Source: Anaerolineae bacterium (lineage in GTDB: Bacteria > Chloroflexota > Anaerolineae > SpSt-600). Taken from it: a stretch of 36,667 nucleotides of DNA. Of this stretch, positions 10,894 to 24,001 are shown piece after piece. The translations under genes and the position numbers were made by a program. Location of the stretch: the NCBI GenBank assembly GCA_025062375.1, contig JANXAG010000017.1, positions 1-36,667 of the forward strand. The letters are read 5' to 3'. Below the pieces are notes generated by a model. The model worked only from the letters and a program-made list of their open reading frames with translations, was not told the origin of the DNA and made no database searches. The stretch's first letter is position 1; each line of letters starts with the position of its first letter.

Positions 10894-13800
10894 CTAACGG
10901 GATGATTTGAAAATCAATGGGAAGAAAATTTTCCAGGAGCGAACTTTTACCCAGGCGGCGCGCTCCAAGAAATTCCCCCCTCTTTCCCCGAAGAGAGCCA
11001 CGAGATAAAAAGTTCGCTCTTTCCAATTTCGCATCTCAAGTTCCCAGCGCACAGAAGAAGAGGAGCCGGCAGGAAGGGAACCCCTCCAGCGCAAGGAACC
11101 TTCTCCCACCTCCAGATCCCCCGCATCCCAGGAGACGGAATCTGCGATAAGCTTGGAGCCTGCAGGAAAAGTTATAAAGGCCAGAACCTCGGGAGCATCG
11201 CCGAAACCCTCGTTTCTGAGAGTCAGAACGCAGGAAACAGAAAAACCCGAGAGGGTTTCCAGCGGCGCGCATCCGAAAGTGGATGGGCTTAAATCCGGTA
11301 TCTCTATCCCGACCCGCGCTTCTCTACGGAAGCGGATGCCCTGCTCTTCAATGCCCATGGTTGCTTCCTGGCGCACTACCGTGCCAGGCAGAAGATCCTC
11401 CCCCACCGCAGTCCGGTAAACTACAATCACGGACTCACCGGGCAGAATTTGCCTGAACCCCGAAATGGAGAAAGAGGCTGGATCATATACTGCTGGCCCG
11501 GTCAGACTTGAAGGCAAGAAAGTCAACCCCGATGGGATTGCGGTGGAAAAGAAGGCTGTTACAGGCTCCGGGCCGTCGTTCCTCAAGACAATGGTCCAGG
11601 TTACTGTGTCTCCTGGCATTACCGAAACTGGCTCAGCAGAAAAGGAAGAGGAGCCAAGCCAGGACAGGAATCCCACGATCCTTTCCATCGTTTGAGGGCG
11701 TGCTTCTTCCGGTAGAGCTTCAAAGGGGAAGGCAAAGAAAACAGAAGCCCGGTCTCCATCCCGGCGAGCCAGCCCAATGGCTCTCCTTTCTTGATCTCTG
11801 AAAACCACCAGCGTGCCCGGAGTGGGCTCAAGGGCATCGGACCAGTTGCGGAAGGGGTATTCGAGGGGCCAAGGACCAAGGTTCTCTCCAACGGGCTCTT
11901 CCGGCACCCCCAAAGCCAGAGTTGGTGTAATATCCTCGGTCCAAGTGAGAACCCCCAGGAAGGGAAGCAGGGAGCCTGTCCCCCTGCAGAAAGGAAGGCC
12001 AGCAGGACTTCGGCAGAAAAGGAAATCCTGGGAAGAGAGAAAAAGCCTGCCTCCATTGAGGAGATAATAAGCCAGAGCCTCCTCTTCCTCCGGCCTCACC
12101 GGGTCATACCAGTTGTATCCTGTCCACCATACGACGATGGGATACCAGTTCAACATTTCCAGAGGGAGCTTTGAATCAGTAGCTACCAGCAAATCGTAGG
12201 GAAGTCCAGCTTTAGTCATAGCGCTTTCATACTTTTCTGCCTGTTCATACCACCGATCATTGTCCACAAGGAGGATGGGGGCAGGAGTTTTGGTGGTCAT
12301 GGATATCTGCACGGAAACAGCTGAGGACAGGGAAGAGCGCAGGGTCAAAGTCAGGGTGTCCTGTTCATTCCACCCCGCATCAGGGGGTATCGCTACCGCA
12401 ATTTCAATCTTATCAGCCGCGCAGGGTTCAAGGGTTACAGACCAGGCAGAGGGGACGGCAGACCATCGGCCTCCTTCTATAGAAACGGTTATGGTATCAA
12501 TTCCGCCTCTTCCTATGTTTCTGAACGCAACCCCGTGGGTAATTACATCACCTGGCTGGCCTATGATGGTGCGAGAGGCTCCGATCACCTGAAGGCCAGC
12601 CTGAGGAGGTGGAGAGGTGAGCCACGATATGGCTTTGTCCATGATCTCCCTTCTGGAATCTCTGCTGGCTATAGCCTCAAAGCCGAAGGAGAAGTAAAGC
12701 ACCCTGTAATCAAGGCACACCCCAACCGCAAGCCCTCCATAGCCATCGCCGGAGTAGACCAATACCGGTGAAGCTTCAACGGGATCAGCGGGTTCTATCA
12801 CGTCCGGGAATAGCTGGTTGTCGGCGCCATCCCCGTTGGCGATGGAGAAATTTAAACCGGCGAAGGGTCCCCCAGGGAGGCCTTGAAGGCTCCAGAGCTG
12901 GCTGTTATCCCGGACGAAACGAGCTTTGAGGTAACGGTTGTAGTATGGAGCGTAACCGATTCCGCCCCCGTCCAGAAAACCTATATCCTGGCCGCTCAGG
13001 AAAAGCCTGCCACCGCTGGAAAGGTAAGAAGTTATGGCTCCTTCAGCCCCGATGTAACCCGGAGCATCCTGAGGTGCGCTCCATATTACGAGGTCGTAAC
13101 GGCTCAGGAACTCTGCGGCGGGAAGGTCCCGCGGGATGCGGCGGATTGTCCATTCATCGTAGGTGTAGGCCAGATCTTCCAGAGCTTGGCGATAATAAAC
13201 TATCTGGCTTCCATAGTACCAGGCTCCGCTATCCACCAAGAGGATGGAAGGAGCAGATACTAAGTTCAAGGTCACGGTCGTCGTTTCGCCCACTTTGACA
13301 GAAACTGTGGTGGTTGCCACCCGGAAGCCTAAAGCACGAGCCAATACTGTGTAGTCTCCGGCTGGGAGGGAGAAACTCCAGAAACTGGCGGTAGCCGATA
13401 GAGGTGTCCCCGCAATGGAGATGGCGGCGGTCAAAGGCCTTCCAGTTGCAGCTTCGTAGACGTAAACTTCAAGGGTTCCGGTTGGAAGGGACTGAAGGGT
13501 AAAGTTAACGGTGGTGGTGGCACCCCTGGAGACAGCAACATTGGGGAAGGTCTGGGAATAATAGCCAAAGGCGGAGGCGGTTAGCCTGTATAGGCCAGGG
13601 GCCAGGAAAAGGGCATAGCGGCCTGATGGATCAGCAATGGTGTTGCCGCCTCCTGGCCCATCCCTCGGAGTGGCCGAAACGGTCGCCCCTGGAATGGGAG
13701 CTCCCCCCACATTCCGCACCGTTCCCTGGATGCTCCCGGCATTAAGGACAACCGCTACGGCGGCGAAAGCGTCTATCCTCCCCCAGCCAGAATCATTGTT

Positions 13801-15111
13801 GGGGATTGTTAGGGTCAAAGGGACAGCGGTAGAGGTAATGAGGAAAAGAGTTCGGGTTACACTCAAGGTGGGGCTTACCGAACGCATTAGAGCTATCAAA
13901 CCTGTGACATGAGGCGCCGCCATGGATGTGCCACTCTGGTAGCCATAGGTTCCGCCCGGAAGGGATGAACGGATGTTGACCCCGGGAGCCACCACGTGGG
14001 GGCGGATTTCGTTCCACGGGGATGGGCCGCGACTGGAGAAAGAGGCCACCTGATCGTAGGGGTCGCTGGCTCCCACCGCTACCGCTTCAGGGAGGGAAGC
14101 AGGAGAATTTATGGAACCGGGAGAAGGCCCTCCATTTCCGGCAGCAAAAACCGGTACGATTCCCGCAGCCCTTAAAGCCCGGATATCGGCCTGAAATACG
14201 GTGCTCATGGCGCTCGGGGTTCCCCAGGAACAATTCACCACATCAGGAGCGAGGGCCGGGTTTCCTCCCGGGGCCAGGAGCCACTGAAATCCAGCGTGGA
14301 TCCAGGAATCGTACCCAAAGCCATTGCCATCCAGAACTTTAACGGCAATCCAGCGTGCTCCCGGGGCAACCCCTATTCCGCCCCAGCCTACCGCTATCCC
14401 GAGGACGTGAGTGCCGTGGCCGTGGTCGTCAAAGGGGTAAACAGAACCGGTTACAGGGTCAAACCAGTTCCCGAAATGAATTGCAGGGCCATGGGGGTTA
14501 TAACCCCGGTAATTGAACCTGAGAGCGGGGTGGAGCCAATCGGCACCAGTGTCCATTACCGCTACCACAGCTCCTGTTCCGGATATAGCTAAAGAAGACC
14601 ATACCTGAGGGGCCCGGATGCGCTCTATGTTCCATTCCGTTGATTGGAGTGAAATATAAGGCTTTTCCCTCAACCACTGACGGTAATGGTCCAGAAAGAT
14701 GGCGGCTACCGAAGGGTGAGAGGCCAGCTGACGTATTGCCTGAGGCTTCGCCTTCAATGCGAACCCGTTGAAAATCCAGAAGGAGAAATAAGATTCCACA
14801 AAGCCGGAGGTCCTGGCTTCATCCAGATAAGCTTTGAGGGGCGCCTGAGTTCTTGCAGCGAAGGCCTTGAGGTTAGCCACCATTCTGTCTCTGGCCCCAG
14901 CCCACTTTTCAGGCAACTCCTGTTCTTTGAGGACCACGATGACGGATAAAAGGTCATCGGGGCTGGCGGAAGCGAGAGCTTTTGCCAGGGCTGGTTCTAA
15001 GATGGCGCTTCCTCTGGGCTCCGGGGGCTTTTCGGCCGAGGCTAACCAGCCAAACCCTAAGGTGACAAGGGTGGGGATGATCAAAAAGAGAGCAATCCTG
15101 AATTTTATCAA
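10894..15111 (-). CDS. large secreted subtilisin-family (S8) protease with multidomain C-terminus
   Basis: 1405 residues. A signal peptide (about 1-26) and propeptide (about 35-150) precede a subtilase domain with a complete catalytic set: Asp187 (VMDTGAD), His232 (DHGHGTH), oxyanion Asn326 (AAGNGG) and Ser396 (GTSMAAPH). Then come two carboxypeptidase-regulatory-like beta domains (about 455-620), a class I amidotransferase-like Rossmann fold (about 622-840, SILLVDSGAWYYGSQ), a CARDB-like beta domain, a second copy of the Rossmann fold (from about 952, ILLVDNDRWYEQAEKYE), and two DUF11-like beta domains. The tail KIFFPLIFKSSR may be a surface-retention signal. The start is TTG at 15111, with GGAGG five bases upstream. 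It is transcribed away from the lysW operon and probably degrades external protein. Confidence 0.9.
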   Translation of the reverse strand: MIKFRIALFLIIPTLVTLGFGWLASAEKPPEPRGSAILEPALAKALASASPDDLLSVIVVLKEQELPEKWAGARDRMVANLKAFAARTQAPLKAYLDEARTSGFVESYFSFWIFNGFALKAKPQAIRQLASHPSVAAIFLDHYRQWLREKPYISLQSTEWNIERIRAPQVWSSLAISGTGAVVAVMDTGADWLHPALRFNYRGYNPHGPAIHFGNWFDPVTGSVYPFDDHGHGTHVLGIAVGWGGIGVAPGARWIAVKVLDGNGFGYDSWIHAGFQWLLAPGGNPALAPDVVNCSWGTPSAMSTVFQADIRALRAAGIVPVFAAGNGGPSPGSINSPASLPEAVAVGASDPYDQVASFSSRGPSPWNEIRPHVVAPGVNIRSSLPGGTYGYQSGTSMAAPHVTGLIALMRSVSPTLSVTRTLFLITSTAVPLTLTIPNNDSGWGRIDAFAAVAVVLNAGSIQGTVRNVGGAPIPGATVSATPRDGPGGGNTIADPSGRYALFLAPGLYRLTASAFGYYSQTFPNVAVSRGATTTVNFTLQSLPTGTLEVYVYEAATGRPLTAAISIAGTPLSATASFWSFSLPAGDYTVLARALGFRVATTTVSVKVGETTTVTLNLVSAPSILLVDSGAWYYGSQIVYYRQALEDLAYTYDEWTIRRIPRDLPAAEFLSRYDLVIWSAPQDAPGYIGAEGAITSYLSSGGRLFLSGQDIGFLDGGGIGYAPYYNRYLKARFVRDNSQLWSLQGLPGGPFAGLNFSIANGDGADNQLFPDVIEPADPVEASPVLVYSGDGYGGLAVGVCLDYRVLYFSFGFEAIASRDSRREIMDKAISWLTSPPPQAGLQVIGASRTIIGQPGDVITHGVAFRNIGRGGIDTITVSIEGGRWSAVPSAWSVTLEPCAADKIEIAVAIPPDAGWNEQDTLTLTLRSSLSSAVSVQISMTTKTPAPILLVDNDRWYEQAEKYESAMTKAGLPYDLLVATDSKLPLEMLNWYPIVVWWTGYNWYDPVRPEEEEALAYYLLNGGRLFLSSQDFLFCRSPAGLPFCRGTGSLLPFLGVLTWTEDITPTLALGVPEEPVGENLGPWPLEYPFRNWSDALEPTPGTLVVFRDQERRAIGLARRDGDRASVFFAFPFEALPEEARPQTMERIVGFLSWLGSSSFSAEPVSVMPGDTVTWTIVLRNDGPEPVTAFFSTAIPSGLTFLPSSLTGPAVYDPASFSISGFRQILPGESVIVVYRTAVGEDLLPGTVVRQEATMGIEEQGIRFRREARVGIEIPDLSPSTFGCAPLETLSGFSVSCVLTLRNEGFGDAPEVLAFITFPAGSKLIADSVSWDAGDLEVGEGSLRWRGSLPAGSSSSVRWELEMRNWKERTFYLVALFGERGGNFLERAAWVKVRSWKIFFPLIFKSSR

Positions 15112-15137: not shown

Positions 15138-15165
15138 ATTATAGCCTGGGAGGCAGAATGTTCAA
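15138..15165 (-). promoter_or_regulatory. promoter of the subtilase gene
   Basis: On the minus strand TTGAAC (15160-15165) and a perfect TATAAT (15138-15143) are 16 bases apart, about 27 bases upstream of the TTG start at 15111. It is divergent from the lysW operon promoter, about 95 bases away. Confidence 0.6.
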
Positions 15166-15259: not shown

Positions 15260-15288
15260 TTGACAAGCTTTGAGTTCTGTAGTATATA
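15260..15288 (+). promoter_or_regulatory. promoter of the lysW-arg operon
   Basis: TTGACA (15260-15265), a 17-base spacer, then TATATA (15283-15288). Transcription should start near 15295, giving a leader of about 215 bases before lysW. This long leader contains the leader peptide and attenuator described separately. Confidence 0.75.
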
Positions 15289-15314
15289 TAGCTAAACCAT
15301 TTGGGGGAAAAGCT

Positions 15315-15422
15315 TTGGATTTGACGGTCCTGGTAGACCTTCGGGCCAGAAAGCGCGCTAAGCGTGGGCAGGCCCTCAGTTCCGGAGGGTCTATCAGGGC
15401 CATCTTGTCTGCTTTAGCCTAA
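15315..15422 (+). CDS. Arg/Lys-rich leader peptide of the lysW-arg operon
   Basis: A 35-codon ORF starts with TTG at 15315, with GGGGG (15303-15307) seven bases upstream, and ends with TAA at 15420-15422. It reads LDLTVLVDL, then RARKRAKR, then GQALSSGGSIRAILSALA. Four Arg and two Lys codons fall within eight codons (15342-15365), and another Arg codon stands at 15396. Position (just after the transcription start), length and codon content fit a transcription-attenuation leader peptide that senses charged Arg-tRNA, and perhaps Lys-tRNA. A leader peptide-controlled lysine cluster is known in Thermus thermophilus; the assignment here is inference from sequence. Confidence 0.65.
   Translation: MDLTVLVDLRARKRAKRGQALSSGGSIRAILSALA
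15370..15392 (+). promoter_or_regulatory. attenuator pause hairpin (strands 1:2)
   Basis: Bases 15370-15377 (AGGCCCTC) pair with 15385-15392 (GAGGGTCT), giving eight pairs including one G-T, with a seven-base loop. A ribosome stalled on the Arg/Lys codons at 15342-15365 would cover strand 1. Strand 2 (GGAGGGTC, 15384-15391) could then pair with GGCCCTCC at 15454-15461 in the terminator. Confidence 0.55.
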
Positions 15423-15444
15423 GGCTAACTGTAACCAGGGGAAT

Positions 15445-15488
15445 AAAGGGGCCGGCCCTCCGGACAAGAAGGAGGGTCGGCCCTTTTT
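15445..15488 (+). terminator. intrinsic terminator (attenuator) before lysW
   Basis: The 5' arm 15449-15461 and the 3' arm 15471-15483 pair over 13 positions (GGGCCGGCCCTCC with GGAGGGTCGGCCC, one G-T), with a nine-base loop, followed by T84-T88. It ends about 12 bases before the lysW Shine-Dalgarno site. The 3' arm begins with the same octamer GGAGGGTC found at 15384-15391, so the two copies compete for one partner. That is the hallmark of terminator/antiterminator switching. Confidence 0.75.
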
Positions 15489-15512
15489 ATATTACCGATG
15501 AGGAGGTGTGCC

Positions 15513-15677
15513 ATGGCCGAGTGCCCTGAATGCGGAGCTATCATTGAGCTCCCATCCGGAACAGAGGTGGGAGAAATCATCCCTTGCCCCGATTGTGGAG
15601 TGGAGCTGGAAGTCACTAACCTTAACCCCCCAACCCTGGAACTCGCCCCACAAGTGGAAGAGGACTGGGGGGAGTAA
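15513..15677 (+). CDS. lysW: amino-group carrier protein LysW
   Basis: 54 residues. LysW carries the alpha-amino group of 2-aminoadipate or glutamate on its C-terminal Glu, protecting it while the side chain is processed. The sequence has a zinc-binding CPECG ... CPDCG pair (Cys at 4, 7, 25, 28) and the invariant C-terminal EDWGE. AGGAGG lies 6 bases before the ATG. It is the first structural gene after the attenuator and 10 bases before lysX. Confidence 0.95.
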
Positions 15678-15687
15678 GGAGGTGAAG

Positions 15688-16539
15688 ATGAGAATCGGGG
15701 TGCTGGTCTCCCGAATTCGGGTGGAGGAAAAACTCCTCTTCCAGGCCTTGGAGAGGGCCCGAATTCAATACGAGAAAATTGATGTGGAAAATGTCCCCTT
15801 CCTCCTCACCGACAGCAAATTCTCAGGCTTTGATGCTGTGCTGATCCGCTGCGTGAGCCATACCCAGGCCTTTTACGCTTCCAGGGTCCTGGAGAGCCAG
15901 GGTGTGAAGGTTATAAACTCCCACCAGGTAATACACGTGTGTGGGGATAAGCTCCTAACCTCCCTCGCCCTTCTGGAGCATGGTGTCCCCACCCTTCACA
16001 CCCTGGTGGCCTTTGCCCCCGAAACAGCCCTTCAAGCTATTGAAACCATGGGTTATCCCGTAGTGCTGAAGCCCCTCCATGGCTCCTGGGGAAGGCTCCT
16101 GGCTAAAGTGAACGACAGGGACTCAGCCGAAGCTATCCTGGAGCACAAGAAAACCCTGGGAGGATATGCCCACTCGGTTTTCTATATCCAGGAATACGTG
16201 GAAAAACCGGGCAGAGACATAAGGGCTTTTGTGGTTGGAGGGGAGACAATCGCTGCCATCTACCGAAATTCTCCCCACTGGATTACTAATACTGCAAGGG
16301 GGGCAAGGGCCTCTTTTTGTCCCATCACCCCAGAACTTGACCATATAGCCAGAGCCGCTGCCGAAGCGGTAGGAGGGGGGATCCTGGCTGTGGATATCCT
16401 GGAGAGCCCCGATGGAAGACTCCTGGTGAGCGAGGTTAACCATACTCCGGAATTCCGCAACAGCATAGAACCAACAGGGGTGGATATTCCCGGCAGGATG
16501 ATCGATTACGTGAGGGAAGTGGCAGGAGGGAAGCTATGA
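15688..16539 (+). CDS. lysX: LysW-amino acid ligase, first copy (LysX-like)
   Basis: 283 residues, an ATP-grasp (RimK-like) ligase that joins the alpha-amino group of the substrate to the C-terminal Glu of LysW. Visible features are the ATP-grasp core [14 protein letters not shown], the substrate loop [11 protein letters not shown] and the metal site [11 protein letters not shown] followed by [10 protein letters not shown]. The segment [15 protein letters not shown] closely follows what I remember of the 2-aminoadipate-specific Thermus LysX. I therefore favour aminoadipate, but glutamate is possible. The ATG at 15688 has AAGGAGGTGA upstream; the longer frame from 15508 is only read-through of the lysW region in another frame. 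Its stop overlaps the ATG of the next copy (ATGA). Confidence 0.88.
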
Positions 16540-17377
16540 GCGAGGGAAGATTGGGGTTCTTTTCTCCCGGGTGAGGCTTGAAGAAAAACTTATCTTCCAA
16601 GCCCTCGCCCAGCGGAAAATCCCCTTTGTGAAACTGGATATACGGGACTTAGCTTTTGACCTTGAAAAAGGGCTGGCCTTCGAGCGAGTTCTCATCCGGT
16701 GCATAAGCCACCGGGAAGCCCTTTATGGTTCCCGACTTCTGGAAAGCCAGGGGGCAAAAGTGGTCAATTCCTATAAAGTTATCCACCTGGCGGGGGATAA
16801 ATTACTGACATCCCAAACCCTCCTGGATAAAGGGGTGCCTACTCTACCGGTAGTGCTGGCCTTTTCTCCCCAGGCTGCTCTGGAAGCACTGGAGAAAATA
16901 GGCTACCCAGCCGTAATAAAGCCCGTTAATGGTTCCTGGGGCAGGCTCGTTGCCCGAGCTGACACCCCTGAAGCAGCCCGCACTATCCTTGAGCACCGCT
17001 TTTATATGAGCGAGCACTTCGGTTCTGTCTTCTACATCCAGCCTTACGTGGAAAAACCCGGACGGGACATCCGGGTGATGGTCGTGGGAGACGAAGTAGT
17101 CTATGCCGTTTACCGCTACTCATCCCACTGGATAACCAACACCGCCCGTGGTGCCTATACTGCGCCATGCCCTCTGACTCCGGAGCTGGAAGAACTGAGC
17201 CTGAAGGCAGCCAGGGCTATCGGTGGTGGAATTTTAGCTCTGGATATTTTTGAAACCCCCGATGGGCTCGTGGTTAATGAGGTGAACCACACCCCGGAGT
17301 TCCACGGAGCCCTGAAGGCGGTAGAGGCTGACATTCCAGGAAAAATCGTGGACTATTTCCTGCAAGGAGGGGGATAA
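16536..17377 (+). CDS. argX: LysW-amino acid ligase, second copy (ArgX-like), frameshift at start
   Basis: About 280 residues if the frame is restored. This second ATP-grasp ligase is homologous to its neighbour throughout ([33 protein letters not shown]). The substrate-side segment differs: [15 protein letters not shown] instead of [15 protein letters not shown], which may mean glutamate specificity (ArgX-type). The natural start appears to be ATG 16536, which overlaps the previous stop as ATGA and has AGGAGGG five bases upstream. That frame ends at 16572 after 12 codons, whereas the homologous text ([15 protein letters not shown]) is one base out. Inserting one A near 16548 repairs it exactly. 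The only ordinary in-frame start is GTG at 16571, which would remove the first beta strand. Confidence 0.8.
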
Positions 17378-17378
17378 A

Positions 17379-18413
17379 ATGGTTTCTGCTTCCATAGTTG
17401 GGGCTTCCGGATACGCTGGCGGAGAGCTTCTCCGACTGCTCCTTGGCCATCCGAAGTTCAGAGTAAAACAGGTTACCTCTGAAACCTGGGCCGGAAAGCC
17501 TGTTTACTTTGTCCACCCCAACCTCCGGGGGCGCACAGAACTAAGGTTCGTTCAACTTGAGGATCTGGAACCCTGCGATGTCCTCTTCCTGGCCTTGCCC
17601 CACGGTCAGGCAATGTATCAGATAGATTCCTTCTCCTCCCTCGCCCCTTACATCGTAGACCTCTCAGCCGATTTTCGCCTTAAAGATCCAGAGGATTATG
17701 AACGCTGGTACGAGGTAAAACATCCAGCCCCCCACTGGCTTCCCCTTTTCACCTACGGTCTTCCGGAGCTCCACCGCGAAGAGATACGCTCTGCCCGCTA
17801 TGTAAGCGGTGTGGGATGCAATGCTGCCTGCTCCATACTGGCCCTCTATCCCCTTTACCGTCGTAAACTGGTGGAAAAAACCGTCGTGGACGTCAAAGTT
17901 GGCTCCTCGGAAGGGGGAAGCAAGCCAACTCAAGCCTCCCACCACCCGGAAAGGGCAGGGGTCATGCGACCTTATGCTCCCGCATCCCATCGCCACCTAG
18001 CAGAATTGCTTCAGGAACTCAATTTCGGGGAAAAGCCGCAGATACACTTCACAGTCACCTCCGTTGATGCCGTCAGAGGTGCACTGGCTACCTGCCATTG
18101 CTTCCTCAAAGAACCCCTTACCGATAAGGAGCTGTGGAAGATCTACCGGGAAGATTACGGGACTGAACCCTTCATCCGGTTGGTTTCGGCCAAACAGGGA
18201 ATCCACCGCTATCCCGACCCCAAAGTGCTGGCTGGTTCCAATTACTGCGATATCGGCTTTGCTTCTGAGGAAGGGACGAACCGGGTAGTAGTCATGGGTG
18301 CCATTGACAACCTGATGAAAGGCTCGGCCGGGAATGCTCTCCAGGCCGCCAACCTGATGCTGGGCTTTCCCGAAACCATGGGTCTGGAATTCCCCGGCCT
18401 TCACCCTGTTTAG
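17379..18413 (+). CDS. lysY: LysW-gamma-aminoadipyl/glutamyl phosphate reductase
   Basis: 344 residues of the ArgC/LysY family, which reduces the LysW-bound acyl phosphate to the semialdehyde with NADPH. It has the N-terminal nucleotide motif VGASGYAGGELLRLL, the catalytic Cys in SGVGCNAAC (about residue 149), and a conserved His-rich segment in the C-terminal half (HPERAG, ASHRHLAE). It begins one base after the second ligase stop. In this cluster it acts on LysW derivatives rather than on N-acetylglutamyl phosphate. It may serve both arginine and lysine branches. Confidence 0.92.
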   Translation: MVSASIVGASGYAGGELLRLLLGHPKFRVKQVTSETWAGKPVYFVHPNLRGRTELRFVQLEDLEPCDVLFLALPHGQAMYQIDSFSSLAPYIVDLSADFRLKDPEDYERWYEVKHPAPHWLPLFTYGLPELHREEIRSARYVSGVGCNAACSILALYPLYRRKLVEKTVVDVKVGSSEGGSKPTQASHHPERAGVMRPYAPASHRHLAELLQELNFGEKPQIHFTVTSVDAVRGALATCHCFLKEPLTDKELWKIYREDYGTEPFIRLVSAKQGIHRYPDPKVLAGSNYCDIGFASEEGTNRVVVMGAIDNLMKGSAGNALQAANLMLGFPETMGLEFPGLHPV

Positions 18414-18425
18414 AGGAGGATTGAA

Positions 18426-19241
18426 ATGCTGGTGGTTAAATTCGGGGGGAATGGGGACCTTAACCTGGAGGCTTTTTGCTCCGATGTCGCTTTCATGGTT
18501 CAGAACGGCCACAAAGTAGTGGTGGTTCACGGAGGCTCCCGGGAAATGGACTTAATTTCCGAAAAACTGGGCAAGCCTCCCCTCTTCGTTAATACCCCCT
18601 CGGGCTTCCAGTGCCGCTATACCGACCGGGAAACCATGGAGATTTTCACCATGGTACTGGCCGGAAGGGTGAACAAGCTACTGGTGGAAAAGCTTCAGAA
18701 ACTCGGGGTCAACGCCATTGGCCTTTCGGGGCTCGATGGAGGGCTGATAAGAGGGGAACGAAAAGGGGTGATAATTGCCCAGGAGGGAGGGAAGAAGAAA
18801 GTCCTTAAGGGAGACTACGGGGGGACCGTGAAAGCTGTAAACGCGGAGCTTCTCCTGCTTCTCCTTGAACGAGGGTATACCCCTGTAATTGCTCCTGTGG
18901 CTTTAAGCGACGAAGGGGAAGCCCTGAACGTGGATGGAGATAGGGTGGCAGCAGCGGTGGCTGGAGCTCTGGGGGCTGAGACCCTGCTTATACTCTCGGG
19001 GGTTCCAGGACTTCTGAGCGTTTTCCCCGATGAATCCACCCTTATAACCGAAATCCCCGCTCCTAAATTGGGTGAATGTATTGAGCTTTACGCTCAGGGT
19101 AGGATGAAGAAAAAGCTTCTGGGGGCTGTGGAAGCTCTCAACTATGGGGTGCCCTTGGTCATCTTGGCCGATGGCCGGGTTGAAAAGCCCATCCGCAGGG
19201 CTCTTGAGGGATGTGGAACCTTCATTAGGCAGGGAGGCTAA
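18426..19241 (+). CDS. lysZ: LysW-aminoadipate/glutamate kinase
   Basis: 271 residues of the amino acid kinase family (ArgB/LysZ type). It phosphorylates the side-chain carboxylate of the LysW-bound amino acid. Landmarks are VVKFGGNGD at the start, VVVHGGSREMD (Gly-rich loop), the substrate segment RYTDRETMEIFTMVLAGRVN, and APVALSDEGEALNVDGDRVA followed by LLILSGVPGL in the nucleotide half. It has AGGAGG before ATG 18426, twelve bases after lysY, and ends three bases before lysJ. Confidence 0.92.
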   Translation: MLVVKFGGNGDLNLEAFCSDVAFMVQNGHKVVVVHGGSREMDLISEKLGKPPLFVNTPSGFQCRYTDRETMEIFTMVLAGRVNKLLVEKLQKLGVNAIGLSGLDGGLIRGERKGVIIAQEGGKKKVLKGDYGGTVKAVNAELLLLLLERGYTPVIAPVALSDEGEALNVDGDRVAAAVAGALGAETLLILSGVPGLLSVFPDESTLITEIPAPKLGECIELYAQGRMKKKLLGAVEALNYGVPLVILADGRVEKPIRRALEGCGTFIRQGG

Positions 19242-19244
19242 ACG

Positions 19245-20399
19245 ATGGATTACATAGCTCTGGAGGAAGCCCACACGAGTGGTTTCTACAGGAAACAGCC
19301 AGTAGTCCTGGTAAGGGGAGAAGGGGCAAAAGTATGGGATGTGGAGGGACGAGAATACATTGATTGCACATCGGGCCATGGAGTGGCTAATATCGGACAT
19401 GCTAACCCTTATGTTGCTGAGGCCATAGCCCGCCAGGCAACCCGCCTCGTAACTTGCTCCGAAATTTTCTACAACGATGTCCGGGCAGAGCTCTTAGTCA
19501 CCCTATCCCGGATAACGCCGCCGGGCCTCAAGCGGGCCTTCCTGTGCAACTCCGGAACGGAGGCCGTAGAAGGCGCTCTTAAAATAGCCCGGCTTGTGAC
19601 CGGACGCAGGAATTTTGTCGCGGCGATGCGGAGTTTCCACGGCCGCACTTTCGGGGCTCTATCGGCTACGTGGCGCAAAGAATATCGAGAACCCTTCGAG
19701 CCTTTAGTGCCGGGGTTCAGTTTCGTGCCTTTCAATAACCTAAAGGCTATGGAAAAAGCCGTAAACCAGGAGACCGCCGGAGTCATCCTCGAGGTAGTTC
19801 AAGGCGAGGGAGGGGTAATCCCCGGAAAAGGCGAATACCTCCGAGGGGTCCAGGAACTCTGCCGCCAGAACGGAGCCCTCTTCATCCTGGATGAAGTTCA
19901 GACAGGGTTTGGGCGAACGGGGAAGATGTTCGCCTGTGAACATCATGGCCTCGAGCCCGACCTGATGTGCATTGCTAAGGGGCTTGGAGGAGGAGTGCCC
20001 TTCGGAGCGGTGATGATCCACGAGAAGCTTGGGGAAATGCCCAGGCGCCTGCATGGCTCTACCTTCGGGGGTAACCCCTTGGCCTGCGCTGCAGCCCTGG
20101 CCGCCATCCGTTACCTCCAGGAGCACGACCTTCCCAAACGGGCAGCTGAGCTCGGAGAATACTTCCTGAACCGCCTGAGCCAGATAAACTCCCCACTGAT
20201 CCGGGAAGTAAGAGGTTTGGGTCTCATGGTGGGGATTGAACTCAAAAAAGAGGCTGCCCCCTACCTTGAAGCTCTCGTCAGGGAAGGAGTTCTGGCGCTT
20301 TTCGCTGGCCCAACCGTTATACGTTTCCTGCCACCCCTCGTAATAACCAAAGAGGAACTGGACAGAGTAGTGGAAGCTGTGGAGAGGGTGCTTTCATGA
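19245..20399 (+). CDS. lysJ: LysW-gamma-aminoadipate/glutamate semialdehyde aminotransferase
   Basis: 384 residues, PLP-dependent class III aminotransferase of the ArgD/LysJ group. It converts the LysW-bound semialdehyde to the LysW-bound lysine or ornithine with glutamate as donor. It shows CNSGTEAVEGALKIAR (phosphate-binding), FHGRTFGALSAT, ILDEVQTGFGRTGK, and the Schiff-base lysine in CIAKGLGGGVPFGA. Its last four bases overlap the lysK start (ATGA), which indicates translational coupling. Confidence 0.93.
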   Translation: MDYIALEEAHTSGFYRKQPVVLVRGEGAKVWDVEGREYIDCTSGHGVANIGHANPYVAEAIARQATRLVTCSEIFYNDVRAELLVTLSRITPPGLKRAFLCNSGTEAVEGALKIARLVTGRRNFVAAMRSFHGRTFGALSATWRKEYREPFEPLVPGFSFVPFNNLKAMEKAVNQETAGVILEVVQGEGGVIPGKGEYLRGVQELCRQNGALFILDEVQTGFGRTGKMFACEHHGLEPDLMCIAKGLGGGVPFGAVMIHEKLGEMPRRLHGSTFGGNPLACAAALAAIRYLQEHDLPKRAAELGEYFLNRLSQINSPLIREVRGLGLMVGIELKKEAAPYLEALVREGVLALFAGPTVIRFLPPLVITKEELDRVVEAVERVLS

Positions 20400-21466
20400 A
20401 AGATGGAGAAGCTGTGGAATTCCTCAAAGACCTCCTGAACATTTACTCACCCTCGGGTGAAGAAAGAGCTCTGGCCATTTACCTGGCCGAAAAGCTTGAA
20501 AGGCTTGGGCTCCACGCCTTCGTGGACCAGGTGGGCAACGTGGTTGCTTCCACCTCTCGCTTAATCCTTCCCGAGCCTAACCTCCTTTTCCTTGGGCACA
20601 TAGATACTGTTCCTGGGTTTATTCCAGTGCGGGAAGAGGGGGGGAAAATTTTCGGTCGGGGCGCTGTAGATGCCAAGGGCCCCATAGCGGCTTTTCTGGT
20701 TGCTCTGGCCAGGATAAACCCCGACAGCGCTGTAGTTTTCGTCGGGGCAGTGGGGGAGGAAGCCGAAAGCCTGGGGGCAAAGCATATAATTCCCAGCTTT
20801 CGCCCCCTTAATGCGGTAATCGGAGAGCCGGGCCGATGGGAAGGAATAACCCTGGGGTACAAGGGGCGGCTCCTCATACGGTATATCCTGTCCAGGCCGA
20901 AGTTTCACACGGCTGCGCCTTCCCCTACTGCTCCGGAGGAGGCTTTCCGGTTCTGGCAGGGGCTCAAGGCTTGGGCCGAGGAGTTCAACGGAGCAAAAAG
21001 CCCCTTTGAGAGGATAGATCTCTCCCTTCTGGAAATTTGTTCTCAGGAAGGGGAGTTTTCCACCTCAGTAGAGATGAAGCTGGGGCTACGCCTTCCCCCG
21101 GGCTTTAAACCTTCCTCAGCAGCTCACCAGGCTTCCTTTTTAGCCGGAGAGGCAACCCTCGAATTTTCGGGGGAAGAGGAAGCCTTCGTGGCCGACCGCA
21201 ACAGTCCCCTTGTCAGGGCTTTCCTGGAAGCCATCCGAAGCGAGGGAGGAAAACCCCGTTTCAAACTTAAAACCGGCACATCCGATATGAACCTGGCAGG
21301 GCACTCTTGGCGCTGCCCCATCCTGGCTTACGGTCCCGGCGATTCCTCCCTGGACCACACCCCCTGGGAGCACATTGAAATTAGCGATTACCTGAAGGCC
21401 ATAAAAGTTTGGGAAAGAGTCCTGAAGCGCTTTTCCGGAGGGCGAGAAAATGGAACCGTGGATTGA
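20396..21466 (+). CDS. lysK: LysW-lysine/ornithine hydrolase
   Basis: 356 residues of the M20 zinc peptidase family. It releases lysine or ornithine from LysW and regenerates the carrier. Metal and catalytic motifs are present: LGHIDTVPG, GRGAVDAKGPIAAFL, GAVGEEAES and, near the C-terminus, KLKTGTSDMNLAG. It overlaps lysJ by 4 bases at the 5' end and argH by 17 bases at the 3' end, so argH expression is tied to the carrier pathway. Confidence 0.92.
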   Translation: MKDGEAVEFLKDLLNIYSPSGEERALAIYLAEKLERLGLHAFVDQVGNVVASTSRLILPEPNLLFLGHIDTVPGFIPVREEGGKIFGRGAVDAKGPIAAFLVALARINPDSAVVFVGAVGEEAESLGAKHIIPSFRPLNAVIGEPGRWEGITLGYKGRLLIRYILSRPKFHTAAPSPTAPEEAFRFWQGLKAWAEEFNGAKSPFERIDLSLLEICSQEGEFSTSVEMKLGLRLPPGFKPSSAAHQASFLAGEATLEFSGEEEAFVADRNSPLVRAFLEAIRSEGGKPRFKLKTGTSDMNLAGHSWRCPILAYGPGDSSLDHTPWEHIEISDYLKAIKVWERVLKRFSGGRENGTVD

Positions 21467-22808
21467 ATCGGAAATGGTGAGGAAATTTACCGCTTCCGTG
21501 AACTTTGACCGGAGGCTTTACCGAGAAGACATCCGGGGAAGCAAGGCTCATGTCAAAATGCTGGCGCAACAGGGCCTTCTTTCCCCTGAAGAGGCCGAAG
21601 CCATCCTCCGGGAGCTGGAGAAAATCCAGGAAGAGATAGAAAAAGGTGAGTTCAGGTGGAAGGAGGAGTACGAAGACCTCCACCTGAACATAGAGGCTGC
21701 TCTCATAGAGAGGCTTGGAGAAACAGGGGCTAAGCTTCACACTGGGAGGAGCCGGAACGACCAGATTGCTCTGGATATGCGCCTTTACGTTCGCGAGGCT
21801 GCAGGGAAAATCTGTGAAGCCATAACCCGGGTGCAGGAAGCCATCGTTGACCTGGCGGAAAATCACATGGATGCAATAATGCCAGGCTACACTCACCTTC
21901 AGAAAGCCCAGCCAGTGCTCTTTTCCCACCACATTATGGCCTATTTCTGGATGCTGGAAAGGGACAAGGGGCGATTCCGTGATGCGCTCCAGCGAGCTGA
22001 TGAGTGTCCTCTGGGAGCTGGGGCTTTAGCCGGAAGCACTCTCCCCCTCGACCCCGAATTTGTAGCTCGGGAACTGGGCTTCTCCCGGAGCTTCCACAAT
22101 AGCATGGACGCTGTAAGCGACCGAGATTTCATCCTGGAGTTCCTTTCAGCTTGCTCAATCCTCATGGTGCACCTATCTCGCCTGGCTGAAGAATTAATCC
22201 TGTGGTCCACCCGAGAATTCGGCTTCATAGAGCTGGCGGCCCCCTTCACTACTGGCTCCAGCATGATGCCCCAGAAGAGGAACCCCGATGTGGCGGAACT
22301 CATAAGAGCGAAGGCCGGAAGGGTGTTCGGTCACCTTATGGCTCTCCTCACGGTCCTCAAGGGCCTTCCCCTGGCCTATAACCGAGACCTTCAGGAAGAC
22401 AAAGAAGGCCTTTTTGATGCGGTAGATACCGTCCTGGCCTGCCTTGAAGTTTTAGCGCCGATGCTTCGCTCCATTGAAGTCAAGAAAGAGCGGGCAGCTT
22501 CAGAGGCAAGGGATGGCTTTCTGCTGGCCACAGACATGGCCGAATACCTCGTGGCCAGAGGGATGCCTTTCCGTCAGGCTCACGCTGTGGTGAGGAAGAT
22601 AGCAGAATACTGCCGGACAGGGGGAAAGGACCCTCAGGAGCTAAAGGTGGAAGAACTGCGGGCTTTCTCCGAACTTTTTGGAGAAGATTTTATGGAAGGC
22701 TTCACCGCTGAAGCTTCCACCAGGGCAAGGCGTGCCCCAGGTTGCACCTCCCCGGAGCGGGTCAAAGAGCAAATCCTTGAAGCGAAACAAAAACTAAAAG
22801 GAGGTTAG
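21450..22808 (+). CDS. argH: argininosuccinate lyase
   Basis: 452 residues. It cleaves argininosuccinate to arginine and fumarate, the last step of arginine synthesis. Fumarase-superfamily signatures are clear: HTGRSRNDQIALDMRL, the lyase loop TTGSSMMPQKRNPDVAE with the catalytic Ser, and the C-terminal RRAPGCTSPERV. The N-terminus is short: it starts MEPWIESEMVRKFTAS and lacks the usual WGGRF segment, although FDRRLYREDIRGS follows normally. The start overlaps the end of lysK. Its place directly after lysK points to arginine as a product of the cluster. Confidence 0.96.
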   Translation: MEPWIESEMVRKFTASVNFDRRLYREDIRGSKAHVKMLAQQGLLSPEEAEAILRELEKIQEEIEKGEFRWKEEYEDLHLNIEAALIERLGETGAKLHTGRSRNDQIALDMRLYVREAAGKICEAITRVQEAIVDLAENHMDAIMPGYTHLQKAQPVLFSHHIMAYFWMLERDKGRFRDALQRADECPLGAGALAGSTLPLDPEFVARELGFSRSFHNSMDAVSDRDFILEFLSACSILMVHLSRLAEELILWSTREFGFIELAAPFTTGSSMMPQKRNPDVAELIRAKAGRVFGHLMALLTVLKGLPLAYNRDLQEDKEGLFDAVDTVLACLEVLAPMLRSIEVKKERAASEARDGFLLATDMAEYLVARGMPFRQAHAVVRKIAEYCRTGGKDPQELKVEELRAFSELFGEDFMEGFTAEASTRARRAPGCTSPERVKEQILEAKQKLKGG

Positions 22809-22810
22809 CC

Positions 22811-24001
22811 ATGAAAAAGATAGTCTTAGCTTACTCGGGCGGTCTTGACACTTCTGTTTCCATCCGCTGGTTGAGGGAAAAATACGATGCTGAAGTAATT
22901 GCCCTGACCGTGGACATAGGTCAGGAAAAGGACATTGAAGCCATCCGCCGCAAGGCGCTCGCTATCGGAGCCGTAAAAGCTATAACGGTAGACGCCAGGG
23001 AGGAGTTCATAAAGGATTTCGTCTTCCCGGCCCTGAAAGCCGGCGCCATATACGAAGGCGATTACCTCTTATCTACAGCCCTGGCCCGTCCTCTTATCGT
23101 AAAGCACCTGGTAAAAGTGGCCAGGGAAGAAGGAGCCACAGCTGTAGCCCATGGTTGCACCGGCAAAGGCAATGACCAGGTCCGATTTGATGTCTCCACA
23201 GGTGCCCTCGCCCCTGATCTGGAAGTGATCGCCCCGGTGCGAGAATGGGGGATGACCAGGGAGGAAGAGATCGAATACGCCCATAAACATGGGATACCCG
23301 TCCCGGCAACCCTCAGCAGCCCCTACAGCATAGATGCTAATCTCTGGGGCCGGAGCATAGAATGCGGGGTTCTGGAAGACCCCTGGCAAGAGCCCCCGGA
23401 AGAGGTCTTTGAATGGACCAAGCCCGTTGAAGCTGCCCCTGCCAAACCTTATTATCTCCAGATAGACTTTGAAGAAGGAATCCCTGTCGCTCTGGACGGA
23501 GAGAAACTTTCGGGGGTTGAACTCGTGAGCCGCCTCAACCAGATAGCGGGGGAGTACGGAGTTGGCCGCATAGACCACATTGAGAATAGGCTTGTGGGGA
23601 TAAAATCTCGTGAGGTCTACGAAGCCCCCGCCGCTGTGGTCCTCTTTGAAGCCCACCGCAAGCTGGAAAAGATGACCTTAACCAAAGAGGTGCTGCGGTT
23701 CAATGCCCAGGTGGCCGCAACCTATGCCGACCTGGTCTACAATGGGCTCTGGTTCTCACCCCTGAAAAAAGCCCTGGACGCTTATGTGGATGCCGTCCAA
23801 AAGGTGGTCACGGGCACAGTAAGGGTAAAGCTGGAAAAAGGGGTAGCACGCGTGGTGGGAGTTCGTTCCCCCTACTCCCTTTACGACTATAACCTTGCCA
23901 CTTACGACAAAGCTGATGCCTTTGACCACAGGGCTGCGGTGGGCTTCATAAAACTGTGGGGACTTCCCCTCCGGGTAAAGGCGAGGGTGCAGGGACTTTA
24001 A
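22811..24001 (+). CDS. argG: argininosuccinate synthase
   Basis: 396 residues. It joins citrulline and aspartate with ATP. The pyrophosphatase loop AYSGGLDTSVSIRWL opens the protein; other family segments are HGCTGKGNDQVRF, SIDANLWGRSIECG and YNLATYDKADAFDH. It is normal in length, starts two bases after argH with GGAGG upstream, and is the last gene of the operon. argF (ornithine carbamoyltransferase) is not in the window. Its end overlaps the end of the opposing rplY gene by four bases. Confidence 0.97.
   Translation: MKKIVLAYSGGLDTSVSIRWLREKYDAEVIALTVDIGQEKDIEAIRRKALAIGAVKAITVDAREEFIKDFVFPALKAGAIYEGDYLLSTALARPLIVKHLVKVAREEGATAVAHGCTGKGNDQVRFDVSTGALAPDLEVIAPVREWGMTREEEIEYAHKHGIPVPATLSSPYSIDANLWGRSIECGVLEDPWQEPPEEVFEWTKPVEAAPAKPYYLQIDFEEGIPVALDGEKLSGVELVSRLNQIAGEYGVGRIDHIENRLVGIKSREVYEAPAAVVLFEAHRKLEKMTLTKEVLRFNAQVAATYADLVYNGLWFSPLKKALDAYVDAVQKVVTGTVRVKLEKGVARVVGVRSPYSLYDYNLATYDKADAFDHRAAVGFIKLWGLPLRVKARVQGL

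Follow-up and report, generated by a model that had tools for sequence, protein, structure and literature searches.

Classic transcription attenuators combine a leader ORF that contains codons for the cognate amino acid with antiterminator and terminator structures that are mutually exclusive. Leader-peptide attenuation also reportedly controls the lysine cluster of Thermus thermophilus. The fungal arginine attenuator peptide, as in Neurospora arg-2, is a eukaryotic nascent peptide that causes arrest at high arginine and involves no transcription terminator. The trp, his, leu and thr leader-peptide attenuators have been reviewed or analysed (PMC1262725, PMC1183508). In Salmonella, ORF34 of speF senses arginine by ribosome pausing at consecutive Arg codons, and replacement of these codons with Lys codons abolished arginine control (PMC6386406). 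A leader peptide upstream of carA, a gene of the arginine/pyrimidine route in Pseudomonas aeruginosa, is cited in PMC4997734.

Here, we describe a candidate attenuator in the window, the whole 36,667 nt stretch of DNA that was analysed, which belongs to a genome of the Anaerolineae (Chloroflexota). It appears to be a ribosome-mediated transcription attenuator that senses charged tRNA-Arg and controls the lysW-lysX-argX-argCBDE-argHG operon, a reading to which we assign a probability of about 0.87. The interpretation offered in the original prediction, which was made from the DNA letters, is supported as largely right. Three aspects appear to be new, namely Arg-codon control of an operon for arginine biosynthesis, a class-wide relationship between leader codons and ligases, and tandem Lys attenuators; a published arginine-type biosynthetic attenuator was not found in the open-licence literature, which does not establish priority. 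Attenuation of arginine biosynthesis through Arg codons would add a missing member to the attenuated pathways, and would do so in a phylum whose tested genomes are without ArgR.

The lysW operon and the window genome

All genes of the operon are on the forward strand. The first is lysW (15513–15677; TIGR01206), for an amino-group carrier protein ending in EDWGE, and it is followed by two ligase genes of the NCBIfam LysX family at 15688–16539 (TIGR02144) and 16547–17377. Homologues of argC/lysY, argB/lysZ, argD/lysJ and argE/lysK occupy 17379–21466, and their NCBIfam matches include ArgC, a LysW-type kinase, LysJ/ArgD and a LysW-type hydrolase. The operon ends with argH and argG (21450–24001; TIGR00838 and TIGR00032). 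A distinguishing motif near the C-terminus is EFRNS in the first ligase and EFHGA in the second. The substrate signature motif of the Sulfolobus enzymes is Asn-Thr in LysX and Gly-Phe in ArgX (PMC10433800). From the motifs, we take the EFRNS ligase to be LysX-like and the EFHGA ligase to be ArgX-like.

The window genome (95% complete) encodes ornithine carbamoyltransferase (argF), while ArgJ, ArgR and LysA were not found in it, nor was a homocitrate synthase above the cut-off. Given this content, the LysW route is probably the arginine route of this genome, which apparently does not make lysine, and the suggestion that arginine is mainly what is sensed gains support. Four carbamoyltransferase-family matches were seen in the genome, one of them exceeding the argF cut-off. 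A LysX-type ligase is kept beside the ArgX-type ligase in the window genome and in G001, G120, G076, G266, G019 and G059, despite no homocitrate synthase being found above the cut-off in any of the seven.

The leader region

A sigma-70-type promoter is predicted at 15260–15288 on the forward strand, with TTGACA (15260–15265) and TATATA (15283–15288) separated by 17 bp, and similar boxes precede other leaders of the class. A possible Shine-Dalgarno sequence, GGGGGA (15303–15308), is followed by a 35-codon leader ORF (15315–15422) that starts with TTG, stops with TAA and encodes the peptide LDLTVLVDLRARKRAKRGQALSSGGSIRAILSALA. Codons 10–17 (15342–15365) read R-A-R-K-R-A-K-R and are the putative control codons. 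Promoter, ORF and codon block had all been placed in the original prediction, and re-reading the sequence gave the same coordinates. The ORF is between the promoter and lysW, the first structural gene, and is predicted to share its transcript. A pattern-based scan of the window flagged neither the leader promoter nor the leader terminator, because the pattern requires a -10 box ending in T and accepts no loop longer than 8. Upstream, a gene encoding a large subtilisin-like protein (1405 residues) runs divergently at 10894–15111 on the minus strand, with a promoter-like site at 15165–15138 on the same strand.

A same-genus genome, Anaerolineae bacterium RSWS10 (G001; JAPWUT010000077.1), keeps both promoter boxes, the ORF, the helices and the terminator. 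It has GGGG at the site matching the possible Shine-Dalgarno sequence and GTG as the leader start codon. The frame and stop position are retained, with no indel within the ORF. Differences between the two congeners affect 15/36 leader codons but spare the RKRAKR block, where every base is identical, and are found at 4, 11 and 7 sites in codon positions 1, 2 and 3, respectively. A test for purifying selection on the peptide in this two-congener comparison was negative, and a function of the peptide in trans is therefore not favoured.

Alternative RNA structures in the leader

Folding with 37 °C parameters, which ignore transcription kinetics, gave −96.4 kcal/mol for the window leader, compared with −71.9 ± 4.5 kcal/mol for shuffled sequences (z −5.4). 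The predicted intrinsic terminator (15445–15488) has a stem of −34.5 kcal/mol in which 15445–15461 pairs with 15471–15487, making 17 bp rather than the 13 originally counted, and a T-run at 15484–15488; it is conserved in the congener. Segment 2 (15381–15406), the 5′ strand of the antiterminator, has its partner at 15446–15464, with 15381–15391 pairing with 15454–15464 and then 15398–15406 with 15446–15453. An antiterminator formed by an octamer had been proposed, and GGAGGGTC does occur at 15384–15391 and 15471–15478, with GGCCCTCC at 15454–15461, but the helix is longer than the octamer. In the window folds and in the comparison of 50 leaders described below, the antiterminator and the intrinsic terminator are mutually exclusive.

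Segment 1 (15326–15342), the anti-antiterminator, can form an uninterrupted 17 bp 1:2 helix with 15385–15401. This helix had been overlooked in favour of a hairpin at 15370–15392, and is the strongest upstream structure in the window leader. The hairpin is possible, with GGCCCTC (15371–15377), conserved in the congener, as an alternative protector arm for 15385–15391, and it appears in the model with the ribosome at 15354, but it is not the strongest structure. In the congener, the 1:2 helix is just partly kept, with G-U/G-C exchanges and one A-A mismatch. As the window's family supplies these two sequences only, the covariation available there, a few such exchanges and the one mismatch, is thin.

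Under the proposed mechanism, transcription would begin near 15295 and a ribosome would translate the leader ORF. With arginine in good supply, the ribosome would pass the RARKRAKR codons, segment 2 would be covered or re-paired with segment 1, and the terminator would form, ending transcription before lysW. A shortage of charged tRNA-Arg would instead stall the ribosome on the Arg codons, where it would cover segment 1, allowing segment 2 to pair with 15446–15464 and RNA polymerase to read through. Sequence and comparison establish the parts, their mutual exclusivity, the coincidence of the control codons with the predicted stall optimum across the class and the agreement of leader codons with ligase type; a transcript from this promoter, stalling in vivo and a response to arginine are inferred.

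Predicted effect of ribosome position

To model stalling, the ribosome was placed at each codon and only the RNA past its 3′ edge was free to fold. The score was the free-energy cost of opening the terminator 5′ arm before the 3′ arm exists, with a high cost meaning that the antiterminator holds the arm. It replaced an earlier measure, based on whether the arm pairs with any upstream sequence, that gave no discrimination. In the window, the cost is approximately 7–8 kcal/mol with the ribosome at the stop codon or absent, versus 17–19 kcal/mol when the A site holds AAG 15360 or CGT 15363. With the A site at 15342, 15351, 15360 or 15363, the free RNA has a minimum-energy fold in which 15381–15391 pairs with 15454–15464, extended to 15406/15446, and which so takes up the terminator 5′ arm; at 15348 or 15354, other folds win. 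A shift test on the window alone was weak (11/34 shifts match or exceed the observed value), because codons before the block free segment 2 too, but the highest costs still span AAG 15360 through CAG 15369.

Among the leaders of the class, the cost generally peaks at or beside Arg/Lys codons, with low values when the ribosome is at the stop codon or absent. In 27 leaders, R/K codons had an excess of 3.6 kcal/mol, compared with −0.14 ± 0.52 kcal/mol under the shift null, and the observed excess was reached by 0/100,000 circular shifts, or by 17/100,000 when one leader per family was used. Optima are weak and partly off the Arg codons in some ArgX leaders (G186, G173 and G316). In the folding model, a ribosome stalled at the control codons promotes the antiterminator, clearly across the class and less so for the window alone. 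This part of the stalling model in the original prediction stands, but the main protector is the pairing of 15326–15342 with 15385–15401, not 15370–15377.

Attenuators in other LysW operons

In a survey of 160 distinct lysX operons, ORF-terminator pairs were picked solely by cost contrast and terminator strength, leaving amino-acid identity unused. Attenuators with a leader and a terminator were found in 46/160 operons, compared with 2/160 when the reverse strand of these regions was scanned. Several lineages that have LysW operons yielded neither a leader nor a terminator. As had been anticipated, the leaders of related lysW operons contain an Arg/Lys-rich ORF in front of the terminator. Leaders in other families of the same class as the window genome have the blocks RNSRRARxKRS (f9, seven genomes), RSKRSR (f18), SKRR (f54) and VKRSPR (f12). 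Operons with a single EFRNS ligase, many of which continue into homocitrate synthase and homoaconitase genes, have Lys blocks, e.g. KKGKK, KKQVKKNK and IKK, and those with a single EFHGA ligase have the blocks RRARA, RRAR, RRPRK, RRSR or RRRK. The control peptide of L242 (same operon as L262), MQISFDLKRRARELVEPDLLGRCCFA, was classed as Arg.

The 2:3 helix beats shuffled controls at z < −2 in 37/50 leaders (mean z −2.8), and matched segments pair at −22.8 kcal/mol, compared with −17.2 kcal/mol for mismatched segments from other leaders. Cores such as UCCGG/CCGGA, the form in the window family, and UCUGG/CCAGA, seen in many leaders, are compatible with compensatory change. In the alignment of f9 and f18, the helices are nearly invariant and there is little covariation. 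A separate 1:2 helix, such as the 17 bp helix of the window, is supported in just 12/50 leaders (z < −2). A check for covarying 1:2, 2:3 and 3:4 stems had been proposed; of these, the 2:3 helix has support in most leaders and a separate 1:2 helix in a minority. In many leaders lacking a separate 1:2 stem, segment 2 extends into the stop codon, e.g. GTCTGGATAG, and a terminating ribosome would therefore mask segment 2 directly.

Lys-type operons seem in places to have doubled the attenuator in tandem. Two leader-ORF/terminator units, each containing Lys codons, are found in series upstream of lysW in 11 operons from at least four families (L056, L117, L126, L177, L178, L229, L237, L238, L243, L248 and L249). 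Outside Chloroflexota, Candidatus Neomarinimicrobiota bin92 (L173) has a Lys-codon leader, KADMKAKAR, and a terminator before its lysW operon. Two-ligase LysW operons with the ligase order reversed are present in Acetothermia (L101 and L108), where one ligase is approximately 67% identical to LysX of the window; this may reflect horizontal transfer, and no terminator or leader was found for these operons. In L102 and L038, a repeat-like stretch of approximately 300 bases separates the attenuator terminator from lysW.

Codon identity and ligase type

In LysX-type operons, the codons at the predicted optimum are 43% Lys and 4% Arg, compared with 7% Lys and 6% Arg elsewhere. The Lys figure has a shift null of 12.6 ± 2.7% and was reached by 0/2000 shifts; Arg was not enriched. 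Where an ArgX-type ligase is present, Arg accounts for 28% at the optimum versus a shift null of 16% (14/2000). A curated set, for which the choice of blocks used amino acids as the operon scan did not, contained Lys-dominated blocks in 34/34 LysX-only operons and Arg-dominated blocks in 7/7 ArgX-only operons (Fisher P 4e-8, relatedness ignored). All 12 two-ligase operons that have a leader, including that of the window, are Arg-dominated and each has at least one Lys. Both kinds are found in one genome, G364, in which the LysX operon has a Lys leader (NDKKDKRTK) and the ArgX operon an Arg leader (RDRRART).

The control codons are cognate to the predicted end product, with Arg codons before the arginine operon of the window and codon-ligase concordance across the class. 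As the LysW lysine and arginine pathways use homologous enzymes, annotation often cannot tell which amino acid is made. The leader codons appear to reveal it, in agreement with the ligase motif, and amount to a natural codon-swap experiment in which one operon type, sometimes in one genome, has Lys or Arg control codons. ArgJ is present in 2/2 tested genomes that have a Lys-type leader and in which no Arg-type leader was found, and absent in 10/10 with an Arg-type leader.

Alternative explanations

The leader might instead be a dual-input attenuator, in which a shortage of either lysine or arginine would trigger antitermination of an operon that has both LysX-type and ArgX-type ligases. We consider this possible though somewhat doubtful. 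In the 12 two-ligase leaders, the Lys is usually part of an adjacent Lys-Arg pair (AKRG, AKRS, SKRS, SKRR or VKRS), AAG 15360 and CGT 15363 are the R/K codons of the window with the highest predicted antiterminator strength, and the block is entirely without Lys in some ArgX-only leaders (G364, G173, G186 and G009). However, these 12 operons represent five families, with seven of them in one family, and a Lys codon in a peptide rich in Arg may be there by chance or by descent. Homocitrate synthase is missing from the window genome and several relatives, and some of them either make lysine through LysA or apparently make none, so lysine need not be a product there. We advance only tentatively the broader proposal of an attenuator family in LysW operons whose codons mirror the ligases (Lys with LysX, Arg with ArgX, both with both) and in which the window would be a two-input Arg-or-Lys gate.

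Arrest driven by charge or by the nascent peptide is very unlikely. In that reading, tRNA supply would not be what is sensed; the polybasic peptide itself would slow the ribosome or, as an arrest peptide, detect arginine or ornithine within the exit tunnel. RARKRAKR is strongly basic, and a leader that responds to arginine and ornithine is known from Salmonella (ORF34 of speF; PMC6386406), but Lys and Arg are both basic, yet Lys is found in LysX operons and Arg in ArgX operons, and leader sequence outside the block is not conserved, as the codon-position differences between the two congeners indicate. A terminator in a 5′ leader would also fit a metabolite riboswitch, a T-box or protein-dependent antitermination, in which case the ORF would be incidental. 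These options seem extremely improbable, as no Rfam regulatory RNA family (riboswitches, T-box and known leaders) matched at the gathering score, the weak matches (E up to 1) being unrelated hairpins, and no conserved aptamer-like core is apparent, with sequences varying among families while the codon rule persists. ArgR (PF02863) was found in 0/12 genomes searched, including that of the window, though the eight control genomes were positive, which argues against both protein-dependent antitermination and an ArgR-controlled arginine operon. Constitutive attenuation, or a leftover terminator without regulation, could account for the leaders missing from many relatives, but has hardly any probability given the codon-ligase concordance, the optimum position and the 2:3-helix support across many families. 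We therefore favour the tRNA-Arg-sensing attenuator.

Comparison with described systems

Like the T. thermophilus lysine cluster, the operons described here appear to have ribosome-mediated attenuation upstream of a LysW-pathway operon, with Lys sensor codons in the Lys-type leaders. The window differs in having mainly Arg codons, two ligases and argH/argG, and in belonging to Chloroflexota; ArgR is present in the Thermus control genome but was not found in the window genome. With the trp, his, leu and thr attenuators, the locus shares a leader ORF with cognate codons and mutually exclusive antiterminator and terminator, but the cognate amino acid would be arginine (or lysine), many leaders are without a separate 1:2 stem, and Lys-type leaders can be in tandem.

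Arg codons in a leader ORF are the proposed arginine sensor here, as in speF ORF34. Rho-dependent termination, RNase G and polyamine-gene translation are part of the ORF34 output, whereas the window has an intrinsic terminator before arginine biosynthesis genes. The P. aeruginosa carA leader is likewise a leader peptide upstream of a gene of the arginine/pyrimidine route, but of a different operon and phylum. The arg-2 peptide of Neurospora and the leader peptide of the window would both be short arginine-sensing peptides, the former acting by arrest at high arginine without a transcription terminator.
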